From a virus, in IMG/VR virus record IMGVR_UViG_3300046703_000129, positions 1 through 40,354 of that record: a stretch of 40,354 nt of DNA. One strand, written 5' to 3'. Below the pieces are notes generated by a model. That model had not been told where the DNA came from. It worked only from the letters and a program-made list of their open reading frames with translations, and did not search any database. Of the stretch, positions 1,878-25,552 are shown piece after piece; the first letter of the stretch is position 1, and the number at the start of each line of letters is the position of its first letter. The position numbers were made by a program, and so were the translations under genes.

Positions 1878-2093
1878 TTAGGCATTTTTAACAGGTTTTT
1901 CTTTTACAAGTTTTTCGGTTCCTTTTTTCGCTTCATCAAAAATCCGCTTGAATTCCTTTAGCCTGATATCGGGATAAAGATGGATCATTGCATGGGATTG
2001 AGCCTGCATAAATTCCCTTACAGTAGCAAAGGAACGGACATAGGCAGGCTGAAACTCAGCCCGCCCGATGTTCGATTTAAGAGGCGCTTCCAT
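1878..2093 (-). CDS. Small hypothetical structural-operon protein
   Basis: A 71-residue basic protein whose C-terminal half is Lys-rich (FKRIFDEAKKGTEKLVKEK). Its start overlaps the stop of the tail tube gene and it is followed after 2 bases by the next gene, so it is co-translated with tail genes. No family was recognised. Confidence 0.7.
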   Translation of the reverse strand: MEAPLKSNIGRAEFQPAYVRSFATVREFMQAQSHAMIHLYPDIRLKEFKRIFDEAKKGTEKLVKEKPVKNA

Positions 2094-3073
2094 TAACCTA
2101 ATGATAAGGAAACAGAACCAGTCGATTCAAAACCACCTTCCGGTGCAGCACCTACGCCCAGGGCAGCCAACGCGGTTGCTCCGACAAGGTTTGCAACGTG
2201 AACGCCGGTAGGTGAGGATCCGATGGTCAAAGTAAAATAATCATCCTTTGCACCTACGATAGTTTCGGGTACATAAGCAACCGAGGAGGGTACAACCGGA
2301 GCGCCGGCCTTTGTAACAGCCCAGGCAGCAGCAGCGGCCAAAGGAGTGGAAAAACTTTCACCCATTGAAGTTTTTGTTGCAACCTCAAAGGCTGAAATTT
2401 TCCATACCACGTCGGTTGTTCCCGATTTACTGATCGAAGTCAGCACAACAGGAAGCAGTCCTTTAATTTGGTTTTCAAGTGCATTGGCCAGACGGATATA
2501 ACCGAAGGAGTCATTCATTTCGCTTACATCTGTAAATGCAAGTTTGGTACGGTATTCGACCGTTTTTGAGAAGTCATTTGCCTTGTAGGCAAATGTCAGG
2601 ATCTGATCCAAGGAATACCCGTAAAGGTTTCCGGTTGCATCTTTGCGACCGAACAATGTATTCGGGTTTCCGGAATCAACTAACAATACTGAAAAATCTT
2701 CCGAAAGGTTGAAGGTTCTCAGTTGTTTGTTGAGTTCCAGACCGCCTTTGTCGAGCCGGTAAGTGTAGCTGTTTTTGCCTTCTTTTACAAAGACTTCGGC
2801 GTCGTTACCGAGTTTTTCAAATGTAGGCTCTGTCGATCCATCAACGATGGACGCAACACCCATAACAGGATAATAGCGTTCCTTACCCGTCTTTCTCGAA
2901 GCAGCCTGAATGTAGGCAATACAGGTAGCGGCGTCAACAAGCGAAGCCGTAGGGATGAATTCATTTTTGTCGAGCAGAACGAAACCCTTAATCGCTTGAG
3001 GGTTCACAGCCTTGCCCGGTGTTCCAGTTAAACCGTAAGCGGTTGTAATCTGGGGATCGTTTAATATACTCAT
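2093..3073 (-). CDS. Major tail tube protein
   Basis: A 326-residue protein with an N-terminal stretch typical of tail tube or sheath-like subunits of Bacteroidota phages (SILNDPQITTAYGLTG) and an Ala/Gly-rich C-terminal region with an Ig-like feel (TGVHVANLVGATALAALGVG). It lies between the tail terminator and the genes leading to the tape measure, the standard position for the tail tube. With a long tape measure and no sheath or contractile baseplate genes seen, a non-contractile tail tube is the best reading. The function is inferred from position and composition. Confidence 0.65.
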   Translation of the reverse strand: MSILNDPQITTAYGLTGTPGKAVNPQAIKGFVLLDKNEFIPTASLVDAATCIAYIQAASRKTGKERYYPVMGVASIVDGSTEPTFEKLGNDAEVFVKEGKNSYTYRLDKGGLELNKQLRTFNLSEDFSVLLVDSGNPNTLFGRKDATGNLYGYSLDQILTFAYKANDFSKTVEYRTKLAFTDVSEMNDSFGYIRLANALENQIKGLLPVVLTSISKSGTTDVVWKISAFEVATKTSMGESFSTPLAAAAAWAVTKAGAPVVPSSVAYVPETIVGAKDDYFTLTIGSSPTGVHVANLVGATALAALGVGAAPEGGFESTGSVSLSLG

Positions 3074-3606
3074 GGCGTTTGTTTAATTTTAAGTGTTAAT
3101 GATAAATTTTTAATGTCAATGGCATCGATAAAGTCAAAGCCTGGTATTCCGTCTTTTCCCCATCTCATGCGGTCGGTTTTGGTAAAGGATAACATATTAA
3201 AAGTGCATTCTTTAAATACACCCGATTGTTTGATCCCTTCCATAAGGGCCGTAAAAATTGGGTAAAGTATAGGCTTAAAATTGTTTGTGTAACGAAGTGC
3301 GGCCGTCCAGTCCTTGTCCGATAAGTTTACAATAGCAAGGTGTAATGAAGGTAGTTTACAATAGTAACCGATGTCCTCACTAAACTTTTCATCAAAATCC
3401 TGGATTAAAAAGATAGCAGGGAATTTGTAAGCCTCACGAGCCGGGTCTTTACCCATTTCGGTAAGTGTATCTGAAATTTCATCAATGGGGCCATAATAGA
3501 ACGACGGTACAACTCCGACGCCAGCACCCAGGACAACATCGGCCCTGAACAGCGCACCCTCGACCATCGCTTTGAAAATATCTACTATGTACTGACTATC
3601 TTCCAT
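3070..3606 (-). CDS. Tail completion / tail terminator-like protein
   Basis: A 178-residue protein placed between the head-tail connector and the tail tube, where the neck or tail terminator protein lies in lambda-like gene order. I start it at the ATG at 3604-3606, which overlaps the preceding stop as TAATG; an upstream Met at 3618 is possible. Visible features include a hydrophobic N-terminal helix and the segment YKFPAIFLIQDFDE, which resembles small virion connector proteins. The function is inferred from synteny. Confidence 0.6.
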   Translation of the reverse strand: MEDSQYIVDIFKAMVEGALFRADVVLGAGVGVVPSFYYGPIDEISDTLTEMGKDPAREAYKFPAIFLIQDFDEKFSEDIGYYCKLPSLHLAIVNLSDKDWTAALRYTNNFKPILYPIFTALMEGIKQSGVFKECTFNMLSFTKTDRMRWGKDGIPGFDFIDAIDIKNLSLTLKIKQTP

Positions 3607-4124
3607 TATATTCCCCATTGATTCATCAGTTCAAATTCCTCCCATCCGGTATCTCCGGAGATGTAGGTAGTGTAGATCGTCGAGTTATCATCCACCCAGA
3701 TACGCAGGTTTTCGATCATGTCAACCATGCGGTTCCAGTTTGCGATGATTTTACCTTTATTCGATACGACTTCCCCGCCCTCCGGTTTTGGTTTTACCGA
3801 TCCGATCCCGGTAGTCTGGGACTGTTGATCTTTTAGCCAATGATGATAAACATAATTAGCAACCGGCCCTGTGTAGATAGACCCTGAAACGACATATATC
3901 TGATCCTTAAGGTTATGCCAGATGCCAGATGAATCCGCTTTGTGCGTGTAAAACTCATCAGCAAAGGCAGTGCCTAATATCTTACGTAAAAAAGCGACCT
4001 CATACAATTCAGCCAAAGCAAGTATGCCGTTCTGAATCGAAGTATGCGGATCGCCTGAGCCGTTGATATTAGGAACCTTTGTGGGTTCGTAATAAAAATA
4101 CGCCGTCGTTAAAATCGCTGTCAT
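3606..4124 (-). CDS. Head-tail connector-like protein
   Basis: A 172-residue protein with repeated aromatic helices (YEVAFLRKILGTAFADEFY; VANYVYHHWLKDQQS) like the helical head-completion adaptors of Bacteroidota phages. Its start overlaps the end of the small basic gene before it, and its stop overlaps the next start (TAATG). The order capsid, connector, terminator, tube supports an adaptor role, but no diagnostic motif is visible. Confidence 0.6.
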   Translation of the reverse strand: MTAILTTAYFYYEPTKVPNINGSGDPHTSIQNGILALAELYEVAFLRKILGTAFADEFYTHKADSSGIWHNLKDQIYVVSGSIYTGPVANYVYHHWLKDQQSQTTGIGSVKPKPEGGEVVSNKGKIIANWNRMVDMIENLRIWVDDNSTIYTTYISGDTGWEEFELMNQWGI

Positions 4125-22653: not shown

Positions 22654-23330
22654 CGAATTTGTCCTTGTTTTTCCACTTTATTTTCCAACTTAAACCAAAC
22701 GGCAATCATTTTTTGTTTCCAGTTGTGAACTTTATTTCCTTGACTATCTATCCAATCATTTACCGAATAGTATTCATGTGCTTTTTTTGCTGCATCAATC
22801 TTATAACCTTTTTCTACAAAGTATTTTATTACATCTTCAACAAGGGGCGGAACAAACACTTCTTTTACTTTATTAACCTTCTTTACTTTCTTATTACTTT
22901 CTTGTATGTGTTCCACGGTTGTTACATGGTTGTTACACAGTTGTTCCACAGTTGTTATATGGTTGCTACGTGGTTGCTCTATTTCATCTTCGTATCCCTG
23001 ATAATTATCCCAATTACAAACAGTTACAATAGAATATTGGTTGTTACTTTCTATCGAAATTAACCCCCAATCATCGGAGGCAAATTTTTGTATCCATTTA
23101 TAAATGGTTGATCCATCAATCCCTAATTGTTCCTCTGCTTTAAATCTTCCAAAAATGAATTGACCGGGATTAAGAGTTACAATAGTTGATCCTTTACCAA
23201 TCTTTATCGGAAGGCAACGAATTTTATAACTTGCTTTTGCAAGGCACCATATCCATATCTTTAATGCGGTTTGGTGAGCGAAAACCGGATGATCTAAAAT
23301 TTTACGATATAATTTTATATGGCCCTCCAT
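22650..23330 (-). CDS. O-like replication initiator containing the origin iterons
   Basis: A 226-residue protein with an N-terminal winged-helix region (IKLYRKILDHPVFAHQTALK; FKAEEQLGIDGSTIYKWIQK) typical of phage replisome organisers and DnaT-like initiators. The middle is a variable linker whose DNA contains six tandem 11-bp iterons (22911-22976), followed by a Lys-rich segment (ESNKKVKKVNKVKE). This copies the lambda O arrangement, in which the initiator gene contains its own origin. It is followed by the primase-helicase. Confidence 0.75.
   Translation of the reverse strand: MEGHIKLYRKILDHPVFAHQTALKIWIWCLAKASYKIRCLPIKIGKGSTIVTLNPGQFIFGRFKAEEQLGIDGSTIYKWIQKFASDDWGLISIESNNQYSIVTVCNWDNYQGYEDEIEQPRSNHITTVEQLCNNHVTTVEHIQESNKKVKKVNKVKEVFVPPLVEDVIKYFVEKGYKIDAAKKAHEYYSVNDWIDSQGNKVHNWKQKMIAVWFKLENKVEKQGQIR
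22911..22976. repeat. Six tandem 11-bp iterons, probable origin of replication
   Basis: On the plus strand six consecutive 11-base units fit TTMCAYRGTTG closely: TTCCACGGTTG, TTACATGGTTG, TTACACAGTTG, TTCCACAGTTG, TTATATGGTTG and CTACGTGGTTG. They lie inside the initiator gene, are not a multiple of three, and are flanked at 22861-22905 by a pyrimidine-rich AT-rich tract that could melt. This matches iteron-type origins. Confidence 0.75.
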
Positions 23331-23734
23331 TATTCCACATCTTTATTAACAGGGGTAATTTCAATATTCCACGTTTTCCCGTAATCGTAATACATTAAAT
23401 CCTTTGATTGAAGTGTGATATTAATCTTGTCAAGGATCATTGCAATTGCCCGATAATGATAAGTTGTAAAGGTTTCCATACCAACAACCTTCATAAAATT
23501 TACCTGTATCTTTTCCAAATCATTGTGTTCATTTTTATGGCAATCTTCACAAAGGGTAATAAGGCATATATTATCATATTCCCAGATCATTTTACCCTTA
23601 TCATACCAGCGATGATGAACATTGAGGGTTTTGTCTGTTGCCCTGCAGCAACAACAAGTGAAATGGTCGAGTTCCATTATTTCCAGCCGTTTCTTTTGCC
23701 AGCGTGGATCTTTTATTTGTTCCTGGTAGGTCAT
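23330..23734 (-). CDS. HNH nuclease-like protein
   Basis: A 134-residue protein with a metal-binding HNH fold: a CxxC knuckle (TCCCCRATDKT, Cys27-Cys30), the core LNVHHRWYDKGKMIWEYDN and the second CxxC with CHKNEH (Cys62, Cys65, His66, His70). This small HNH group is often next to phage replication genes. It could be a nicking endonuclease or a DNA-binding HNH. It overlaps the small 23731-23859 gene (ATGA). Confidence 0.8.
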   Translation of the reverse strand: MTYQEQIKDPRWQKKRLEIMELDHFTCCCCRATDKTLNVHHRWYDKGKMIWEYDNICLITLCEDCHKNEHNDLEKIQVNFMKVVGMETFTTYHYRAIAMILDKINITLQSKDLMYYDYGKTWNIEITPVNKDVE

Positions 23735-23949: not shown

Positions 23950-24732
23950 TTAAAAAAGCGTTTCACTTCCGATGGGTTTGGCTTCGTAAATTCTGGAATC
24001 TTTATTGTGAACAACAGAATCAATAAGGGTTAACGCCTCTTTATAGAAATTCTTTTTAATCTCAAAACCATATGCCTTTCTTCCGCAAAGTTCAGCTGCT
24101 GCTAAGGTTGTACCACTTCCAGCCACAGGATCAATAACCACGTCTCCAACGTCTGTAAATATTCCTATCAGCTTTAGTAATGTCTTTATTGGTTTTTGTG
24201 TCGGATGGATCTTCGGGGTGTCGCCGTCTTTTGCCCAGTCTATGCAGTTGAAAATCATTTTACCATTGTTATTGAATTTGGGTAATTTTTCCCGGTAGAG
24301 CAATAAGGCATATTCACAATTACCGACGATCCGCATATTTGCTTTTAATACCTGAGCGGAAAAGTTTTTACGGAAAATCAAATTAATATACCTGTTCAAT
24401 CCATATTCTTTGCCGAGTTTTATAAGTTCAAATTGCTGCTCAAATTCACAAAAAACAATCATACAGGGAGCCGTCCCGGTTTGTTTTGGCTCTTTAATTA
24501 GCATGGTTGAACAAAAGTGCATGAACTCTTTTACCCGAAAATCCTTATCGGTATCAAAAAATTCAGTCCCGGCCAGATCGCTTTGACCGTTTTTATTGTC
24601 ACCTCCGATATACCAGGATGGATTTGAACCGTAAGCATTAATTCCTACATTGTAAGGAATGTCAGCAATCAAAAGTTGACATTTAGGAATATTATATTTC
24701 TTATAGTTTTGGAAGTGGTCATTATATAACAT
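23950..24732 (-). CDS. DNA methyltransferase (N4-cytosine or N6-adenine), beta-class order
   Basis: A 260-residue DNA methylase. The catalytic motif (DIPYNVG, Asp24-Tyr27) is near the N-terminus and the S-adenosylmethionine-binding motif (DPVAGSGTT) near the C-terminus, the beta-class order shared by many N4/N6 enzymes. It probably protects phage DNA from host restriction. Its start is overlapped by the end of the homing endonuclease, and an N-terminal copy of its reading frame remains upstream of that endonuclease (25345-25419). The ATG is unambiguous. Confidence 0.9.
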   Translation of the reverse strand: MLYNDHFQNYKKYNIPKCQLLIADIPYNVGINAYGSNPSWYIGGDNKNGQSDLAGTEFFDTDKDFRVKEFMHFCSTMLIKEPKQTGTAPCMIVFCEFEQQFELIKLGKEYGLNRYINLIFRKNFSAQVLKANMRIVGNCEYALLLYREKLPKFNNNGKMIFNCIDWAKDGDTPKIHPTQKPIKTLLKLIGIFTDVGDVVIDPVAGSGTTLAAAELCGRKAYGFEIKKNFYKEALTLIDSVVHNKDSRIYEAKPIGSETLF

Positions 24733-25321
24733 GCTTTTTGATTTTTGGTTTTCTCATTTTCAATTTTGATTCTTCTGTGTGATGCCTTCCAAGCCAAACC
24801 TTATTTCCCATTTTTGCTTCGCTTAGAATTTTTTTAGTTTCGTCTGTGTGTTTTTTCCCCCTGCGCGCTATACCCATTTTTAATTTTGTTTCTTTCGATG
24901 CTGTCCGGCCTTTCATTTTTATTGAATGTGCCAATTTTTCTTCATCGGTTCTCGGTATACCTTTATTCCATGCCTTTTGTCCTAAATGTGAGATTTTTAA
25001 TTTTTCTCTTGTTTCATCTGAAATTGTGTGATTATTACCGCCACTATGCAAATTCATTCCGGATTCAGAATTAAAACATTGGTATAAATCAATATAATAA
25101 ATTTCCTTGTCATTAAGTTCGCGGTTTTCGCATTGGCAAAGTATTTCAAATTTATGTTTATTGTGTCCGTATTTTTTAAGTGATCTGTATAATCTCGTTT
25201 TAGAACCACATCCATGTAATTTTTTATACTCGTTCCATCGTCTTATTATATTAATACTTTGCCCTATATAAACACGTCCCGTCGGACTTGTAATTTTATA
25301 AATTCCTGTTATCTTTTTCAT
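24722..25321 (-). CDS. GIY-YIG homing endonuclease with NUMOD3 repeats
   Basis: A 199-residue free-standing homing endonuclease. The N-terminal GIY-YIG nuclease core is TGIYKITSPTGRVYIGQS (GIY and YIG with the nearby Arg of RRWNEYKKL), followed by two or three NUMOD3 DNA-binding modules (ETREKLKISHLGQKAWNKG; TKLKMGIARRGKKHTDETKK). It has its own promoter. The start at 25321 is used because the longer reading overlaps the promoter. It sits between a truncated and an intact copy of the methyltransferase start. Confidence 0.9.
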   Translation of the reverse strand: MKKITGIYKITSPTGRVYIGQSINIIRRWNEYKKLHGCGSKTRLYRSLKKYGHNKHKFEILCQCENRELNDKEIYYIDLYQCFNSESGMNLHSGGNNHTISDETREKLKISHLGQKAWNKGIPRTDEEKLAHSIKMKGRTASKETKLKMGIARRGKKHTDETKKILSEAKMGNKVWLGRHHTEESKLKMRKPKIKKHVI

Positions 25322-25325
25322 ATTG

Positions 25326-25355
25326 CAAAGATACAACATTTATTTCAATCAGCAA
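25326..25355 (-). promoter_or_regulatory. Promoter of the GIY-YIG endonuclease
   Basis: TTG (25353-25355), 19 bases, TATCTTTG (25326-25333). The -33 element lies within the last codons of the methyltransferase remnant, and the -7 element is only 4 bases before the start codon, implying a near-leaderless message. Confidence 0.65.
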
Positions 25356-25419
25356 TAATTAACTGGGCCTTTGGGATTCCGTAAACTTTGTAATTCTGAA
25401 AATGGTCGTTTATAAGCAT
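25345..25419 (-). pseudogene. Truncated methyltransferase N-terminus
   Basis: A 24-codon frame with its own ATG, ending in TGA, whose protein matches the start of the intact methylase at 23950-24732 in about 19 of 24 positions (LINDHFQNYKVYGIPKAQL against LYNDHFQNYKKYNIPKCQL). It stops right after IAD, where the intact gene continues with the catalytic DIPYN motif. The DNA is clearly diverged, so it is not a fresh duplication. It marks the former methyltransferase gene at this place, cut by the homing endonuclease insertion. Confidence 0.8.
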
Positions 25420-25420
25420 T

Positions 25421-25552
25421 TCAGTTCAAATAAATAATAAACAACCCATCTTCAGCAGGATTTCTCCAGTCCGGAATAATGGATATGATAAATTGATAGG
25501 GTTTGCCAAACTCAATAAGGGCCGGTTTGGAGTAGGTTTTATCTTTTACCAT
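25421..25552 (-). CDS. 43-residue hypothetical peptide
   Basis: A frame reading VKDKTYSKPALIEFGKPYQF and IIPDWRNPAEDGLFIIYLN. Its ATG overlaps the end of the small membrane-peptide gene, and it stops 2 bases before the methyltransferase remnant start. No family recognised; the sequence looks like a real domain rather than noise. Confidence 0.5.
   Translation of the reverse strand: MVKDKTYSKPALIEFGKPYQFIISIIPDWRNPAEDGLFIIYLN

Follow-up and report, generated by a model that had tools for sequence, protein, structure and literature searches.

The usual picture of phage homing endonucleases places them in intergenic positions, inside introns or inteins, or within genes that they split. The free-standing GIY-YIG and HNH enzymes of T4-like phages (SegA-G, MobA-E) mediate intronless homing between co-infecting phages and often target active-site codons of conserved genes (PMC2988022), and intergenic homing, split genes and collaborative homing are the outcomes covered by the same review and by a survey of phage nuclease genes (PMC10448857). 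The replacement of one end of a gene by a homing element is a principle already known from yeast and from fungal mitochondria, at 3' ends. In the WHO elements of Torulaspora and Lachancea (Coughlan et al. 2020), the 3' end of FBA1 is replaced by a resistant allele, and cleavage has been shown (PMC7282813). Mobile ORFs of fungal mitochondria form hybrid genes in Allomyces (atp6) and Glomus (atp6, atp9, cox2 and nad3); in Glomus atp6 the native end is 91.2% identical to its relative, and the two ends are 63.5% identical to each other (PMC3630166). For phages, we found no literature report of a gene end being replaced while the old one persists as a displaced remnant, in a search that reached only a minority of subscription journals, so that a precedent may have been missed.

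The locus described here lies in positions 1 to 40,354 of the viral record IMGVR_UViG_3300046703_000129, a single metagenomic contig; this whole stretch of 40,354 nucleotides is referred to as the window. The locus is like the WHO elements in that an endonuclease gene sits beside a conserved gene with one end apparently replaced, the presumed old end is left beyond the endonuclease, and no splicing is needed; it differs in that WHO elements are LAGLIDADG, intein-derived elements of the yeast nuclear genome acting at the 3' end, whereas the phage cases involve GIY-YIG or HNH enzymes with predicted cleavage, and mostly the 5' end. The fungal ORFs (LAGLIDADG or GIY-YIG), as proposed for the window, sit in a conserved gene with a foreign, diverged end and the native end as a remnant, but they are mitochondrial, affect C-terminal ends only and are sometimes fused in frame with the endonuclease. 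With SegA-G and MobA-E the locus shares adjacency to a presumed target in a conserved gene, different enzyme classes acting on one gene and tight overlaps with neighbours; those enzymes, however, are known for intergenic insertion or split genes (Aeh1 nrdA/mobE, T4 60/mobA), with no gene-end replacement with a displaced remnant described.

The methylase locus of the window

On the minus strand, a 43-aa ORF is followed, 5' to 3', by a 24-codon frame, a GIY-YIG endonuclease gene and an intact N6-adenine methylase gene, with these features:

25421-25552, minus strand: 43-aa ORF; its stop lies one base before the remnant ATG at 25419, and the remnant keeps the operon junction
25348-25419, minus strand: putative displaced 5' remnant of the methylase gene, 24 codons, MLINDHFQNYKVYGIPKAQLIIAD; 19/24 amino acids and 41/72 nucleotides identical to the intact start
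25345-25347, minus strand: TGA closing the remnant, directly at the break point
25326-25355, minus strand: Bacteroidota-type promoter-like site, TTG-N19-TATCTTTG, a weak pattern match with its TTG inside the remnant codons
24722-25339, minus strand: GIY-YIG homing endonuclease with NUMOD3 repeats, 205 aa, predicted from profile matches; Met7 at 25321 is a possible real start
24722-24732, minus strand: overlap of 11 nt between endonuclease end and methylase start
24661-24732, minus strand: codons 1-24 of the methylase, putatively a replaced 5' end of recoded or foreign origin; 3/18 codons in common with the remnant, DNA identity 38/69 over codons 2-24, GC 0.26 against 0.38 in the body
24649-24663, minus strand: catalytic motif IV, D-I-P-Y-N, codons 24-28
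23950-24732, minus strand: complete gene for a DpnA-like N6-adenine methylase of 260 aa (PF01555), the body of which, from codon 45 or so, is putatively native

The endonuclease ORF, which begins eight bases further on from the TGA-closed remnant, matches PF01541 (E 1.1e-6), NUMOD3 (PF07460, E 9.7e-16), a phage homing endonuclease family (phrog_314, E 7.5e-37) and the structure of I-TevI (1mk0, E 0.0015). The IY, Y-G, E and N columns expected of a GIY-YIG domain are invariant in an alignment with five relatives, and the NUMOD3 match supplies the DNA-binding repeats expected of the predicted homing endonuclease. The methylase (PF01555, E 3.7e-23) has the DpnA-type enzymes 5hek and 5hfj as its nearest solved structures, and its DIPYN aligns with the DPPYN of the adenine methylase 5hek, i.e. 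with catalytic motif IV. It is otherwise an ordinary DpnA-like phage N6-adenine methylase, 73% identical to dpnA of a Campylobacter phage, and differs from other DpnA-like methylases of the PF01555 family in its apparently hybrid front. A second endonuclease gene, of HNH type (phrog_119), lies about 215 bases downstream of the methylase (23330-23734, minus strand).

The preliminary description of this DNA had pointed to a short frame with about 19 of 24 residues like the methylase start and diverged DNA, to its stop after IAD where the intact gene goes on with the catalytic motif, and to the overlap of the last endonuclease codons with the methylase start; our alignments bear out all of these. 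The remnant ends after the D codon of IAD, the intact gene running on as IADIPYN, and the resemblance of the two starts is significant (tblastn E 1.9e-7). It had also placed part of a promoter element inside the remnant. A match to TTG-N19-TAnnTTTG is indeed present at 25355-25326, with its TTG in remnant codons, but about 1.2 such matches per window are expected by chance.

The two starts are close in protein yet far apart in DNA. Among 18 comparable shared residues, 15 are encoded by different codons; the DNA identity over codons 2-24 lies below that of 99.99% of 17,364 family pairs with equal protein identity, and the kept-codon count alone places the window in the lowest 1.7% of comparable methylase pairs. 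The front is AT-rich, as is the endonuclease gene (GC 0.32), in contrast to the methylase body, although the front offers only 72 bases for this comparison. The remnant, in turn, is identical in up to 23 of 24 amino acids to the starts of intact methylases elsewhere. These figures bear on the idea of an old target-site duplication, in which the gene start was doubled, by the insertion itself or in tandem, with later drift between the copies. The copies do flank the insert, as a duplication would give, but they are less alike in DNA than almost any family pair of equal protein identity, and the remnant is closer to the genes of many other phages; together with the comparison of a related locus given below, this makes such an origin very improbable.

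To place the frame among its relatives, we fetched about 403 methylase-family loci from viral contigs and bacterial genomes. Separate N-terminal frames of the window type occur only in the window and in one further locus, L078 (encountered again as L159 and L247), and in both a nuclease ORF lies between the frame and the methylase. A frame of the 24-codon type in a locus devoid of an endonuclease, which would have spoken against the earlier interpretation, was looked for in the same ~403 loci and found in none. As the frame is restricted to nuclease-bearing loci, it is neither a chance occurrence nor a normal feature of the methylase gene. The same restriction counts against the view that the frame works as a leader or regulatory peptide instead of being a scar. 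The kept operon junction, with the ATG one base past the upstream stop, indicates that the frame is probably translated, as that view would have it; the frame ends, however, exactly at the break point, and its counterpart in L078 ends 12 nt later with an unrelated tail, so that we give a leader peptide scarcely any credence.

Uninterrupted alleles exist in abundance, with more than 300 distinct methylases and, for L078, a collinear empty site (L248). For the window, a collinear uninterrupted relative was sought by way of a Dam-like methylase gene and the small ORFs, all of which lie upstream, and none was found; the best uninterrupted candidate, L003, has a body 76-78% identical in DNA and a different gene context. 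A window-type endonuclease next to other methylases was found in none of 76 loci, a search with relatives of the HNH ORF of L078 yielded no second methylase insertion, and NUMOD3 was detected in 3 of 396 bacterial genomes. In the Streptococcus phage Javan254 (L607, 1489-2237), the same methylase family is annotated as two overlapping pieces, apparently owing to a frameshift.

A related locus and its uninterrupted counterpart

L078 (IMGVR_UViG_3300009686_000018) can be compared with a collinear relative lacking the insertion (IMGVR_UViG_3300006950_000002, L248, also L064). Its order is remnant codons 1-29 (MELYHDHFQNYKKQNIPKAQLIIADIPYN), a nuclease of the HNH family (phrog_374) and an intact methylase. 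The upstream gene and the remnant (1317-2060) are collinear with L248 2331-3087 with no break, and the second copy (2984-3793) is collinear with L248 2989-3799, i.e. with the same L248 methylase. The remnant is identical to L248 at 79/87 nucleotides (91%) and 29/29 amino acids, the front behind the nuclease at only 64/87 nucleotides (74%), and the body (codons 41-260) at 583/660 nucleotides (88%); the front differs from the body in this respect (p=0.0006) and the remnant does not (p=0.59). Mismatches are dense up to codon 39 and sparse beyond, placing the exchange point near codon 40. From these identities the remnant is the native front and the working gene is a hybrid, native throughout except for a foreign stretch of about 39 codons at its start. 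A small antisense ORF, MAVSKMNIRTLITIPKELKTKLEQLAVRDDRSLNNLIIKILKEYAAHN, ribbon-helix-helix-like by eye, lies between the remnant and the HNH gene (2085-2230, minus strand).

The break in L078 falls after P-Y-N, 12 nt (four codons) beyond that of the window and in the same motif, and the remnant frame there continues into its unrelated tail. Two unrelated nuclease families, GIY-YIG in the window and HNH in L078, have thus broken the same methylase gene 12 nt apart within IAD/IPYN, in keeping with what is generally remarked of T4-type homing enzymes (PMC2988022). Since the L078 remnant is 91% and the neighbouring copy 74% identical to L248, the two copies are not sisters, contrary to what a target-site duplication would predict. 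The existence of this independent case, like the tblastn significance, also argues against a chimeric assembly or a chance resemblance. That the window is a single metagenomic contig is the one point in favour of such an artefact, which we hold to be the least likely reading of all.

In the window itself, the native 5' end would correspond to the remnant at 25419-25348, whose counterpart in L078 is shown to be native by the comparison with L248. The origin of the body has to be judged from correlation and profile. Across 302 methylases, the identity of the window body tracks that of the remnant (rho 0.25) more than that of the front (0.06; bootstrap difference 0.016-0.36). Against the sequences with the eight nearest bodies, the present methylase falls below expectation in codons 13-44 and is normal or above it over most of the remaining codons; the remnant outscores the present front, and the replacement tract may reach about codon 44. 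A native origin of the window body is, with no close empty-site relative found, suggestive only, and the hybrid structure of foreign end plus native body is clear in L078.

The main competing account holds that the endonuclease and a complete foreign methylase entered together, with no more than 24 codons of the resident gene surviving. The front is clearly no copy of the remnant, and no near relative fixes the origin of the window body, both of which such a replacement would accommodate. In L078, however, the body is native and the front alone foreign, and the window body shows its correlation with the remnant and not with the front; we thus regard replacement of the whole gene as unlikely. 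The earlier proposal that a resident methylase was disrupted at its active-site codons, with a diverged homologue now lying behind the endonuclease, is accordingly upheld as to the disruption, by the two nuclease families acting 12 nt apart and by the uninterrupted L248, but probably not as to the extent of the homologue: L078 is foreign only in its first 39 codons or so, and the weaker signals of the window agree.

Putative displaced gene ends beside other phage nucleases

The window and L078 prompted a translated search that set the two flanks of each of 114 distinct GIY-YIG or HNH loci against each other. In this blind screen, a displaced gene end was found in 4 of the 112 other nuclease loci:

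L127, 2171-3224 (also L128, L129 and L132): 5'-type; ClpP-like head maturation protease; identical in four contigs
L510, 1818-1955 and 2794 onward: 5'-type; helicase; the rebuilt copy changes frame close to a poly-A run, through either error or decay
L584, 46-1359, 1527-2138 and 2335-2511: 3'-type; full major capsid gene, frameshifted GIY-YIG endonuclease and displaced 58-codon capsid tail
L111, 3240-3818 and 2250-2500, both minus strand: 3'-type; deoxyribonucleotidase; nuclease antisense, break just before a V-D-D motif

The layout of L127, being the same in four contigs, is not an assembly artefact, which weighs further against a chimeric origin of such arrangements. In each of the 5'-type cases (the window, L078, L127 and L510), the start of the rebuilt gene lies inside the nuclease end or at most 5 bases past the nuclease stop. 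Among 239 control ORFs, strong flank matches arose only from internal similarity between different methylase genes. Flank matches at L108, L141, L144, L163, L529, L553 and L554, low-scoring or of repeat type, were set aside because tandem nuclease genes, repeat domains or noise account for them.

The empty-site comparison covers L078, and a DNA search in named phages for empty sites of L584, L510 and L111 returned none. A hybrid structure of the rebuilt genes in L127, L510, L584 and L111 is suggested by analogy with L078, and a tandem duplication may be another reading of these four. A screen of 16 nuclease genes in 14 cultured phages found the layout at none of them, implying that it is a minority outcome.

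In Bacillus phage Goe14 (L594, 1-3712) the RNA polymerase gene yonO is annotated in two pieces around a GIY-YIG-like ORF, and in Lactococcus phage AM4 (L603, 689-3946) the annotation divides ribonucleotide reductase alpha into two parts with a GIY-YIG homing endonuclease between them; no end duplication was found in either. A stretch within a homing endonuclease gene of Xanthomonas phage MK21 (L595, 8295-8530), annotated as CRISPR in the public record, probably represents NUMOD3 repeats.

A possible course of events and its implications

Taken at sequence level, the window locus is quite probably a gene-end-replacing homing element of a phage, in which the native 5' end has been displaced, the front has diverged and the gene has been rebuilt as a hybrid. 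The donor would have been a related phage carrying the GIY-YIG gene immediately ahead of a diverged methylase that resists the enzyme. During co-infection, the resident methylase would be cut by this endonuclease at its motif IV codons, and repair would bring in the endonuclease gene together with the donor 5' end before returning to the resident sequence somewhere in the conserved body. It would use homology within the gene on the body side, and on the other side the cut end would be joined to the sequence before the endonuclease. The native 5' end, severed at codon 24, would stay behind upstream, a remnant that a stop codon happens to close, and the gene would be whole again as a hybrid starting inside the endonuclease end; the native-like remnant and the body could then serve as homology arms for the next round. 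These steps match those proposed for the WHO elements (PMC7282813), and the outcome matches the hybrid genes of fungal mitochondria (PMC3630166). We infer the cleavage, the position of the cut, the resistance, the co-infection and the window having followed the route of L078.

A replacement 5' end that specifies nearly the same protein in different codons should resist the endonuclease, and the extreme synonymous divergence of the window front agrees with this presumed resistance. Such recoding is expected if the replacement has to specify the same motif while evading the endonuclease, or has to avoid recombination with the remnant. The extreme degree is limited to the window, L078 (11/22 codons kept), L127 (12/18 kept) and others being ordinary in this respect, so selection for recoding is not general; in L078 and L127 the replaced front may be no more than a homologue acquired from a different phage. 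It is therefore a tentative and somewhat doubtful extension that phages host a general class of homing elements which break a conserved gene, carry a synonymously recoded, cut-resistant end and keep the native end as a homology arm, with the selection for recoding visible in the window.

To the usual outcomes of phage homing, these loci appear to add a further one, in which a gene is interrupted and then restored with an end of diverged sequence. It is seen repeatedly, with two families of nuclease and in target genes of five kinds. Gene-end replacement of this kind would make phage genes mosaic from within. As the end of the remnant would mark roughly where the enzyme cut, target sites may be readable from sequence. 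If the general class of recoded ends is real, it would be a natural counterpart of engineered recoded-rescue gene drives.
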